A DNA stretch of 40,275 bases from a virus. Location of the stretch: the IMG/VR virus record IMGVR_UViG_3300044940_000646, positions 1-40,275 of that record; one strand, given 5' to 3'. Shown here one piece after another: positions 3,238 to 36,766 of the stretch (the first letter of the stretch is position 1; every line of letters starts with the position of its first letter). The translations under genes were made by a program, and so were the position numbers. The notes beneath the pieces are model-generated. The model was not told the DNA's origin. It was given only the letters and a program-made list of their open reading frames with translations, and made no database searches.

Positions 3238-4724
3238 TGAAAATACCTTTTATAGTTAGGATTCTTTTTTACTGCTTCTCTTACTCTTTTATTTTTATCA
3301 TCTAACGCTTTACGTAAATGTTCTGCATTTGCGTTTGGATTAGTTGCGGCGCTTTTTCTTACATCCCAGTTTTTATCATTCAATGCTTTATGCAAATGTT
3401 CAGCATTTGCATTTCGATGACTTGCTGCTGCTTTTCTTACAAAATGATTTTTATCATTCAATGCTTTGTGTAGATGTTCTGCGTTTGCATTTCGATGACT
3501 TGCTGCTGCTTTTCTTACATAGATATCTTCATCATTCAATGCTTTATGTAAATGTTCTGTGTTTGCATTTGGATGACTTGCTGCAAATTTTCTTACAAAG
3601 TCATCTTCATCATTCAACGCTTTGTGTAAATGTTCAGCATTTGCATTAGGATTTCTTACTGCAAACTCTCTTACATAAGGATGTTCATCACTTAAGGCTT
3701 TATGCAAGTTTTCAGCATTTGCATTTGGATGACTTGCTGCTTCTTTTCTTACATAGATATCTTCATCATTCAATGCTTTATGTAAATGTTCTGCGTTTGC
3801 ATTTGGATGACTTGCTGCAGCCTTTCTTACAAGGAAATCTTTATCATTCAACACTTTGTGCAAATGTTCTGCAGTTGCATTTAGATGAATTGCTGCTGCT
3901 AATCTTACAATCCAATCTTTGTCATTAAGTGCTTTATGTAAATGTTCTGCATTTGCGTTTGGATGCAAAATATGACTAATATCATTGTCATTATATACTT
4001 CTGGGTGTTTAACAAAAATACCAGGTTTGTATTCACCAGAAAGCTTTTTTGCTACTTCATGAGCACTTTTTGTAAAAATGGGATTCTTGATTCCATATTC
4101 TGAATCCACAGCATAAGCTATATCACCTCGTTCATTATGATGAGGCTGTAAAGTAGCACGGTAGATTTCTTGACCGGCATGATCATGAACACGATGAACA
4201 ACAGTTCCGTGACGAATTTCATTTTCTAAATAATTTTTATTTAAACCGTTATCTACATTTTTACAACTCAATTGAGCCCAAGAATGTCCTTTTGGATGAT
4301 GTGGATCTGGTTTACTATTTGTTTGACCTGCAACTTCGATACCACGAACCGTTGAAGTCTTGAATATATTACCTTTTCTTGATCCTTCTCTTGTCGGATC
4401 AGAAGCAAATGCGTTTCTTAATTTTTCATCTTTGATAAGTCTACCGATCTTCACTTCTCGACCATACTTATCTTTTATCAATCCACGGCGATAATCATCA
4501 TAATGAATTTCTTGACCAAGATGTCTTTCTACAGCACGATGAACTTCACTCTTGTGTTCATGATGTCCTGCATCAGTTGAAATTTCACCATGAACTATAT
4601 CATTATCTTTACCAAAAAAGTGATCTGTCCATGCACGTGCTTTGTCAGTCATCGACACATCAGCAAAACGTTTTCTTTGCTCATCAGTCAAGTATTCAAG
4701 AAGGAATTGTTTGAATTTAATCAT
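3234..4724 (-). CDS. Array paralog with 9 helical repeats, 496 aa
   Basis: Start MIKFKQFLLEYL; nine repeats; ends NPNYKRYFQ. There is no atypical first repeat: a standard HPNANAEHLHKALNDK unit follows HILHP directly. The variable string DIY-VRK occurs twice (repeats 3 and 6), suggesting internal copying. The N-domain carries HHEHKSEVH, where other copies have HQFHKSEVH. ATGA overlaps occur on both sides. Confidence 0.93.
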   Translation of the reverse strand: MIKFKQFLLEYLTDEQRKRFADVSMTDKARAWTDHFFGKDNDIVHGEISTDAGHHEHKSEVHRAVERHLGQEIHYDDYRRGLIKDKYGREVKIGRLIKDEKLRNAFASDPTREGSRKGNIFKTSTVRGIEVAGQTNSKPDPHHPKGHSWAQLSCKNVDNGLNKNYLENEIRHGTVVHRVHDHAGQEIYRATLQPHHNERGDIAYAVDSEYGIKNPIFTKSAHEVAKKLSGEYKPGIFVKHPEVYNDNDISHILHPNANAEHLHKALNDKDWIVRLAAAIHLNATAEHLHKVLNDKDFLVRKAAASHPNANAEHLHKALNDEDIYVRKEAASHPNANAENLHKALSDEHPYVREFAVRNPNANAEHLHKALNDEDDFVRKFAASHPNANTEHLHKALNDEDIYVRKAAASHRNANAEHLHKALNDKNHFVRKAAASHRNANAEHLHKALNDKNWDVRKSAATNPNANAEHLRKALDDKNKRVREAVKKNPNYKRYFQ

Positions 4725-26728: not shown

Positions 26729-27421
26729 ATGAAAACAATAGTTACAAAAAAAGAATATGATGAAGGTCTTCGTTATTTTATGATCAATATGTATAATCAT
26801 ACTGCTTTTGGATTATTAATAAGTGGATTAGTTGCTTATTATATCTATAAATTTGGTCTAATTTCTACATTTATGTCTGGTATTTTGGGATGGATTTTTA
26901 TTTTTGCTCCTCTAGTTATGATTCTATTTTATAGTTTTATGGGTCAAAATTGGAATGTAAAAACAATCACATATTTTTATTATACATTTGTTACTTTATT
27001 AGGAATAAGTTTAAGTGTTGTTTTTACTTTATACACGACTTTGAGTATTGCTCAAGTATTTTTCATAGCAGCGGCAACATTTGCTTCAGCAAGCATTTAT
27101 GGTTATACAACTAAAAAAGATCTTACTTCTATGAGTAACTTTCTTTTTACTGGTTTAATTGGTATTATTATAGCATTGATAGTAAATATTTTTCTTCAGT
27201 TGCCAGCAGTTATGTTTGCAATTAGTGTTATTGGTGTAATCGTTTTTATTGGTCTTATTGCTTACGATACTCAAAATGCAAAAAATATTTACTTTTCTGT
27301 AAGAGATTCTGCTGATTCTGCTAAATATGGAATTGTGTTTGCATTAAATTTATATCTTAATTTTATTAATTTGTTTCAAATGCTTCTTAATTTAATAGGC
27401 GAATTGAAAGAGAATGAATAA
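26729..27421 (+). CDS. Bax inhibitor-1 family membrane protein
   Basis: 230 residues with about seven hydrophobic segments and the family's C-terminal motif GLIAYDTQNAK near 190. BI-1/YccA proteins are inner-membrane proteins; some bind the FtsH protease or affect calcium leak. The phage role is unknown; control of host proteolysis or membrane integrity is a guess. AAGGAG precedes ATG 26729. Its TAA overlaps the speD start by one base (TAATG), so the two are translationally coupled. Confidence 0.85.
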   Translation: MKTIVTKKEYDEGLRYFMINMYNHTAFGLLISGLVAYYIYKFGLISTFMSGILGWIFIFAPLVMILFYSFMGQNWNVKTITYFYYTFVTLLGISLSVVFTLYTTLSIAQVFFIAAATFASASIYGYTTKKDLTSMSNFLFTGLIGIIIALIVNIFLQLPAVMFAISVIGVIVFIGLIAYDTQNAKNIYFSVRDSADSAKYGIVFALNLYLNFINLFQMLLNLIGELKENE

Positions 27422-33211: not shown

Positions 33212-33658
33212 ATGGAAATGGATAAAGAAACACTAATTGATCATCTTAAAAAAGTACTCGCTACTGCTTTTTCACTTTATTTGAAAGCACATAACTATCA
33301 CTGGAATGTAACTGGCCCAAATTTTGGCGAATATCATAAATTCTTTTCTGATTATTATAAAGCAGTTCATGAATCAATAGATCTGTATGCAGAACATATT
33401 CGAATATTAGGTTCTTTTACTCCAGGTTCATTAAAAAGGTTTTCAGAACTTACTCTGATATCTGATGAAGTAGGTATTCCAAGTCCAAAATTTATGTTTG
33501 TTCGTCTTGCTTCTGATAATTTACTTTTTCTTAATGAATTGCGCTCATTAGCAAAATTAGCTGATGAAATGAATGAAAGAGGTTTATTAGCGACTCTTGA
33601 TGCACAAATTCAATTTCATGAAAAAATGCAATGGATGATTACTGCTTACACGGAGTAA
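33212..33658 (+). CDS. dps: Dps-like ferritin family protein
   Basis: 148-residue four-helix Dps fold. KAHNYHWNVTGPNF and YHKFFSDYY plus ESIDLYAEHIR contain the inter-subunit ferroxidase ligands: His30, His42, Asp57 and Glu61 align with E. coli His51, His63, Asp78 and Glu82. The place of Asp67 is Ser46, with Asp47 next to it. Dps oxidises and stores iron and protects DNA from peroxide. It lacks the Lys-rich N-terminal tail used for DNA binding in E. coli. AAGGAG precedes ATG. With heme oxygenase 3.5 kb downstream it suggests iron handling in the infected cell. Confidence 0.88.
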   Translation: MEMDKETLIDHLKKVLATAFSLYLKAHNYHWNVTGPNFGEYHKFFSDYYKAVHESIDLYAEHIRILGSFTPGSLKRFSELTLISDEVGIPSPKFMFVRLASDNLLFLNELRSLAKLADEMNERGLLATLDAQIQFHEKMQWMITAYTE

Positions 33659-33739: not shown

Positions 33740-33811
33740 GCCCTTGTAGCTCAGTAGGTAGAGCAACTCACTTGTAATGAAAAGGTCGGCGGTTCGATTC
33801 CTTTCGGGGCA
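33740..33811 (+). pseudogene. Decayed tRNA-Thr copy
   Basis: Nearly identical to the tRNA-Thr at 34326 but damaged: the anticodon stem has a C-A mismatch (TGAAA for TGAGA), the T-stem reads CCTTT for CCGTT, one G is missing from the acceptor strand, and CCA is lost (CGGGGCATT for CGGGGGCACCA). Confidence 0.75.
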
Positions 33812-36279: not shown

Positions 36280-36389
36280 GTACTGTTTTAGCAGTTATAT
36301 TAATCAAATAGTATTTGCAATAAATTAAATGATTTTCTTATGTTTTAGTAAAAAATAGGTAAAAATTCAAATTTCATTAGTTTTTTCCA

Positions 36390-36397
36390 TATAAATA
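36390..36397 (+). promoter_or_regulatory. Possible late promoter TATAAATA before tmRNA
   Basis: Exact late -10 word about 10 bases ahead of the first tmRNA piece. Chance occurrence is possible. Confidence 0.4.
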
Positions 36398-36404
36398 ATA
36401 TCAT

Positions 36405-36675
36405 AGCGATGATATTCGCCGAATACGCTGTGGACTCGGTTTCGAAACCGACACCTCCACCATAGATACGATATAAGAACTTTATTTTGATTTATTGTAT
36501 CTATGATGGGGGTGAAATGGGGATCGACAAGCGGGCTAGGTAGAATGGAGCTATCCGGCGCAAGCTCGGTTAACGCAAGAAAACAATAAATGCAAACGAC
36601 AACTTTGCTATTGAGGATCGTTTAGCAGCTTAAATCCTCTTGGGTTGGCAACTTACCTAGAAACAGAAAAGTTGC
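36405..36675 (+). ncRNA. ssrA: Circularly permuted two-piece tmRNA
   Basis: The acceptor piece comes first: T-arm-like CGGTTTCGAAACCG and 3' strand CACCTCC (36452-36458) with A and CCA (36460-36462). A processed linker follows, closed by ATAGATAC/GTATCTAT (36462-36469/36497-36504). The coding piece begins GGGGGTG (36508-36514), which pairs with CACCTCC, then GGGATCGAC, the tmRNA 5' hallmark. The tag frame runs from GCA 36592 to TAA 36633 and reads ANDNFAIEDRLAA. CTAGGTA (36536-36542) pairs with TACCTAG (36654-36660). The order acceptor-before-coding is that of alphaproteobacterial tmRNA. The piece ends are approximate. Confidence 0.9.
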
Positions 36676-36766
36676 ATTTATATAAATTTAGTTTTAATAA
36701 TAGAAAAATTTTATTTTTATCAAAAAAATTGATATTAGAACACATTAGTTAAATACTGTTTATGTC

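Follow-up and report, generated by a model that had tools for sequence, protein, structure and literature searches.

A survey published with phage Melnitz in 2022 (PMC9004378) found a tmRNA in 402 of 18,146 phages, counted 53 two-piece phage forms, 50 of them marine or aquatic, recovered 17 permuted tmRNAs among 47 contigs of the Melnitz group, and placed ssrA upstream of a transcription coactivator; 79 unique phage tmRNAs, together with the Rfam family RF04321, are described in PMC11915505. Because both papers already report it, the two-piece tmRNA of phages is a known kind. The closest described systems are those of the T4-like phages Mosig EXVC030M (MT647606.1) and Melnitz (MZ577097.1), which likewise carry a permuted tmRNA directly upstream of gp33-gp59-gp32. 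Mosig is a phage of Pelagibacter and Melnitz a phage of Methylophilales. The DNA analyzed here (the window) is an IMG/VR contig of 40,275 bases, class linear, from a virus of aquatic bacteria, and we confirmed that it encodes a permuted two-piece tmRNA at 36403-36676 (+).

ARAGORN called a permuted tmRNA at 36368-36724 (+) with the tag ANDNFAIEDRLAA*, and the Rfam model tmRNA_permuted (RF04321) matched 36403-36633 with 100 bits (E 1.7e-18; cut-off 47). The two methods thus agree on the gene type that a preliminary description had proposed from the sequence, and the tag named there is the one that ARAGORN reports. A comparison with the alphaproteobacterial model, also proposed there, gave a match of RF01849 (alpha_tmRNA) to 36362-36678 at 81.4 bits (E 1.1e-20), above the cut-off of 50; this was the best-scoring of the alpha, beta and cyanobacterial models, RF01850 (beta_tmRNA) reaching 64.4 bits (below its cut-off of 84) and RF01851 (cyano_tmRNA) 18.2 bits (below its cut-off of 70). 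The fold of the window tmRNA was more stable than that of shuffled sequences (z -5.5; 0/200 shuffles).

The acceptor piece (36403-36462, +; ARAGORN and Rfam) forms the 3' part of the tRNA-like domain, with a T-arm carrying a TTCGAA loop, and ends in CACCTCC (36452-36458), a discriminator A and an encoded CCA (36460-36462). The coding piece follows (36508-36676, +; Rfam and the phage alignment), and its 5' strand, GGGGGTG (36508-36514), forms 7/7 pairs with the CACCTCC on the far side of the linker (CACCUCC/GGGGGUG, G3-U70 included). Sequence order, complete pairing and the covariation given below all bear out the earlier statement that the acceptor piece lies 5' of the coding piece and pairs with it. 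Between the pieces lies a linker of 45 nt (36463-36507, +), which from the sequence and its relatives is expected to be excised; its stem, TAGATAC (36463-36469) with GTATCTA (36497-36503), is followed by TGAT (36504-36507) right before G1. Within the coding piece, the resume codon GCA (36592-36594) opens the tag frame for ANDNFAIEDRLAA (36592-36633, +; ARAGORN), which closes with the stop TAA at 36631-36633. Pairing by eye gave a closing helix of the coding piece, with its 5' strand CTAGGTAG (36536-36543) against CTTACCTAG (36652-36660). There is also a 3' pseudoknot stem, GCAACTT (36648-36654) with AAGTTGC (36669-36675) around GAAACAG (36648-36675, +), whose layout recurs in most relatives. 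Five nucleotides ahead of the Rfam match and the acceptor piece stands TATAAATA (36390-36397, +), a T4-type late-promoter octamer; the coordinates first given for the gene, 36390-36675, therefore run from this box to about 36675, where the final strand of the pseudoknot stops.

The T-arm loop of the window tmRNA (TTCGAA; 36436-36451, +) is one nucleotide short, as it also is in contigs L156-L158. The resume region (36587-36596) and the 3' trailer (36672-36681, +) of the window are perfectly complementary over 10 bp; as a conserved element this pairing was rejected, being present in the window only and absent from the relatives. No terminator-like site was found near the window tmRNA gene.

Relatives were gathered from viral contigs by two routes, through a related gp32 and through the resume motif of the tmRNA, giving a phage set of 102 copies (38 gp32-linked and 64 other viral permuted tmRNAs) beside a bacterial set of 112. 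Every one of the 38 gp32-linked copies, among them those of the window, Mosig and L155, had a fully paired 7-bp acceptor stem, although the stem came in 11 different versions, and G3-U70 was kept in every phage row. Taken alone, the count of perfect stems is biased, because the stem search favored good pairing; the linker stem, unlike the acceptor stem, was not selected for pairing. In an ungapped alignment of 32 phage rows, both sides varied in 12 of 16 pairs, with 109 double-change cells vs. 28.3 in shuffles, and the signal was lost when the register was slid by 1-3 columns. Changes on both sides occurred at 9/9 pairs of the linker stem. Compensatory changes thus support both the acceptor pairing and the linker hairpin, and the hairpin that the preliminary description had seen in a single sequence is upheld by its 32 phage relatives.

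Among the gp32-linked phage copies the linker from CCA to G1 had a median of 87 nt; the hairpin was present in the tested register in 88/102 phage copies, and TGAT stood directly before G1 in most of them. SAR11 linkers measured 11-12 nt and were without a hairpin, and those of other alphaproteobacteria had a median of 26 nt. The idea that the hairpin is exclusive to phages was ruled out, as part of the bacterial set (with tags such as ANDNYAEARLAA) has a similar one; it is therefore typical of phage copies and not unique to them.

The right half of the window is made up of T4-type genes, including topoisomerase II subunits, gp33, gp59 and gp32. The next gene after the tmRNA encodes a heme oxygenase (PF01126; 36767-37330, +), followed by a ferredoxin-dependent bilin reductase (PF05996; 37308-37970, +), a gp33-like late-transcription coactivator (PF16805; 38273-38509, +), which is the fixed neighbor of phage tmRNAs, a gp59 helicase loader (PF08993; 38487-39089, +) and the gp32 single-strand DNA-binding protein (PF08804; 39166-40134, +). 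Contigs L156-L158, the nearest kin, repeat the window's order of tmRNA, heme oxygenase, then gp33, so the arrangement is not an accident of assembly. We examined 48 T4-like viral contigs that have a related gp32 and were chosen mainly for sufficient flank; 36 of them held a permuted tmRNA, as did Mosig. In terms of records, 37/50 (the 48 viral contigs, Mosig and AG-345-P14) carried one above the cut-off. In the loci checked, tmRNA and gp32 shared a strand, the tmRNA lying 0.1-5.3 kb upstream. Wherever detected, gp33 and gp59 stood between the two, and all gp32-found loci examined for gene order had the tmRNA upstream of gp33-gp59-gp32 on one strand. The annotated SsrA genes of Mosig and Melnitz occupy the same place, upstream of gp33-gp59-gp32, and T4-module genes were also present in 43/65 contigs found via the tmRNA itself. 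With 37 of 50 records carrying such a gene, and Melnitz and Mosig already known to (PMC9004378), the initial impression that this arrangement is very unusual in a T4-like phage has to be withdrawn. No tmRNA match was found around gp32 in five isolates (HTVC008M, phiM12, DLP6, S-CREM1 and S-8S29), and the HTVC008M record has no tmRNA annotated before gp33. Searches of isolate phages at the DNA level with the window tmRNA, and of isolates with gp33 as bait, gave no match, and a search of viral contigs with the heme oxygenase brought up no relatives.

An exact TATAAATA was present upstream of 22 of the 36-38 gp32-linked copies, where 0.64 were expected, and upstream of 31/64 other viral permuted tmRNAs; overall, 53/102 phage copies had it just upstream, vs. 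2/112 bacterial ones. Across the whole window the octamer occurs 10 times vs. 6.4 expected, an enrichment that is not significant. From the position of the box, transcription likely starts at or near the acceptor piece, and a late-type promoter belonging to the phage itself probably drives the tmRNA gene. A TTGACA-like -35 is also present in 27/102 phage copies, so early use of sigma-70 is possible too; the Melnitz tmRNA has such a -35 as well. The timing of expression is uncertain, since TATAAATA is similar to the -10 element of sigma-70 promoters too, since these -35 elements are present, and since the Melnitz authors inferred an early promoter and early expression for their ssrA (PMC9004378). 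We favor expression that would be late, or early plus late.

The 60 distinct phage tags share a final A, which is preceded by a second A in 59 of them and by [LVIM]A in 58, while their middle residues vary freely. Conservation of -AA in 59/60 tags beside a variable middle indicates that the degron is under selection, a pattern that counts against both decoy and relic. The same tag, ANDNDSFADIRLAA, was seen in 22 viral copies (L016, L029, L033, L042, L045 and others) with linkers of 5-122 nt. SmpB was not found in the window, nor in any of 48 tmRNA-bearing phage records, several of which are fragments (control genomes were positive in 10/14); we assume that the host would supply it.

We put the probability at about 0.8 that the gene is a functional, phage-owned permuted ssrA which, with host SmpB, AlaRS and ClpXP, recycles ribosomes during infection. 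As we picture it, transcription would begin from the box at 36390-36397 and host tRNA-processing enzymes would excise the hairpin linker, leaving two RNAs held together by the 7-bp acceptor stem and the pseudoknots. Host AlaRS would charge the phage tmRNA through G3-U70, and host SmpB and EF-Tu would bring it to ribosomes stalled on broken mRNA, where translation would resume at GCA and append ANDNFAIEDRLAA, the -LAA end directing the tagged fragment to a ClpXP-type protease of the host. A tmRNA supplied by the phage may in this way maintain the supply of ribosomes and amino acids, probably for the most part at late stages of infection. Stalled ribosomes should accumulate because host (and phage) mRNA is cut during a T4-like infection, and recycling of ribosomes during mRNA degradation would be the most economical benefit; a counterpoint to the need for a phage tmRNA is that the host presumably has its own, and the T-loop shortened by one nucleotide also weighs against a functional window copy.

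The phage tag might instead redirect proteolysis, either for early breakdown of host proteins into amino acids or toward an adaptor or protease of the phage's choice, much as the preliminary description had suggested in speaking of phage-specific proteolysis. The tag of the window differs from the SAR11 tags ANESYALAA and ANDKFALAA, and phage tags are variable in their middle, the region to which adaptors bind. The authors of the Melnitz study suggested that host proteins are tagged early in infection (PMC9004378), and an SspB adaptor is known from the T4-like phage pf16 (PMC5587285). What the tags conserve, however, is a generic degron, the window tag retaining an end of the generic ClpX type, and the late-type promoter box argues against an early-only role; we consider redirection, and with it proteolysis specific to the phage, improbable. 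A tmRNA that titrates host SmpB or AlaRS, or that blocks host trans-translation, is less probable still. Mycobacteriophage DS6A offers a precedent, as it too carries a tmRNA-like gene and its tag-less RNA inhibits host tmRNA, according to a citation in PMC11915505; as presented there DS6A is without a tag frame, whereas the window copy has a full tag, and frame, stop and degron are kept in the 60 distinct tags. That the gene is a mere passenger or artefact (a bacterial fragment, a chimeric contig or a decaying transferred gene) is hardly credible, for although prophage excision can pick up ssrA fragments (PMC9004378), phage genes on one strand flank the window tmRNA, the same order with heme oxygenase is present in three other contigs (L156-L158), and both the covariation and the conserved degron speak against it.

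Kinship was examined in two trees. In the first (165 rows, 183 columns, built without beta sequences), 72 of 73 phage rows separated from the bacterial rows with an SH-aLRT of 98, and the window paired with L156 at 91; L156-L158 are the nearest kin of the window tmRNA. In the second, a weak tree of 184 columns to which nine beta rows had been added, the beta rows fell among the phage rows as sister to phage L143 (99/94). A single clade of phage copies was accordingly not borne out once beta sequences were included, although a tree holding all phage rows as one clade was not rejected (AU p 0.17). The bacterial sample is partial and contains no cyanobacteria, and ten low-scoring 'phylum' matches taken as possible beta sequences held no convincing permuted gene and were dropped. 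L134, L143 and L199 (at the gp33-gp59-gp32 locus) scored above the beta_tmRNA cut-off, as did the record of L050; the Rfam models agree in showing both alpha-like and beta-like copies in such phage contigs. Co-divergence with gp32 was weak (thinned Mantel r 0.21, 43 of 5000), the nearest neighbors by tmRNA and by gp32 agreeing in 2/30 cases.

A recent capture from SAR11 was ruled out, as the window copy does not group with SAR11 tmRNAs and has a long linker and a non-SAR11 tag; the comparison with SAR11 that had been proposed at the outset thus came out negative, with SAR11 tags and 11-12 nt linkers unlike those of the window and the phage rows grouping apart. Nor does the gene serve as good host evidence, as had been thought, since the window copy still scores 64.4 bits with the beta model and beta-type tmRNAs occur at the same phage locus. 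Naming a host from this tmRNA is unsafe given the mixed alpha and beta copies, the weak co-divergence with gp32 and the partial bacterial sample. Permuted genes above the cut-off were found in 11/26 genomes of one betaproteobacterial family and in 1/26 of its order. This patchy occurrence, with the nesting of beta rows among phage rows, is the basis for a wider and rather doubtful proposal, namely that aquatic T4-like phages may hold an old tmRNA lineage of their own, driven by a late promoter beside gp33, from which the beta form would be derived.

Several other features of these genomes deserve mention. Fourteen tandem HEAT/LRV-repeat genes (104-22734, -), encoding proteins of 444-627 aa, take up over half of the window. 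Their best matches are each other (73-81% identical), and all start M-x-x-F-K-x-F-L-x-E-Y-L-T, which to our mind is reminiscent of the leader that targets T4 internal proteins to the capsid and of its LxE cleavage site. The expansion is striking. The window also encodes a Bax1-I (Bax inhibitor-1 type) membrane protein (26729-27421, +; E 2.7e-47), here in a T4-like phage, a ferritin-like (Dps-type) protein (33212-33658, +; PF00210, 3.3e-17) and a fifth tRNA (33740-33811, +) with 41.9 bits in Rfam and no ARAGORN call. The nearest phage relative of the window heme oxygenase is that of Mosig (43%), which adjoins a bilin reductase and lies near a ferrochelatase. Mosig (L246) further has a manA RNA motif at 4165-4372 (-), between rubrerythrin and a hypothetical gene.

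A ribosome-rescue RNA is thus not an oddity of a few isolates: a large T4-like phage group commonly carries it as a syntenic gene (36/48 contigs sampled). This raises the testable question of whether lytic phages that destroy mRNA need ribosome rescue of their own, and it cautions against reading the host's name from the tmRNA of a phage. Compared with its closest counterparts, the tmRNA of the window is far diverged in sequence from that of Mosig (48%), and the heme oxygenase and bilin reductase that lie between tmRNA and gp33 in the window are about 70 kb away in Mosig; in Melnitz the tmRNA is followed by a glutamine riboswitch, for which the window has no Rfam match. The alphaproteobacterial form (RF01849, e.g., SAR11) shares with the window the piece order, the acceptor pairing, an ANDN-type tag and the resume region, whereas the short hairpin-less linkers and the tags of SAR11 differ from the phage form, whose linkers are long and mostly bear a hairpin, and in the tree the phage rows stand separate from those of the alphaproteobacteria sampled. 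The betaproteobacterial form (RF01850) has the same gene form and its rows lie among the phage rows, but its tags are of the ANDERF type, unlike that of the window, and the window falls below the beta cut-off. As far as the literature consulted shows, what is new here is how widely the synteny extends, the TATAAATA box, covariation among the phage tmRNAs, the statistics of the tags and the finding that beta rows fall among phage rows.
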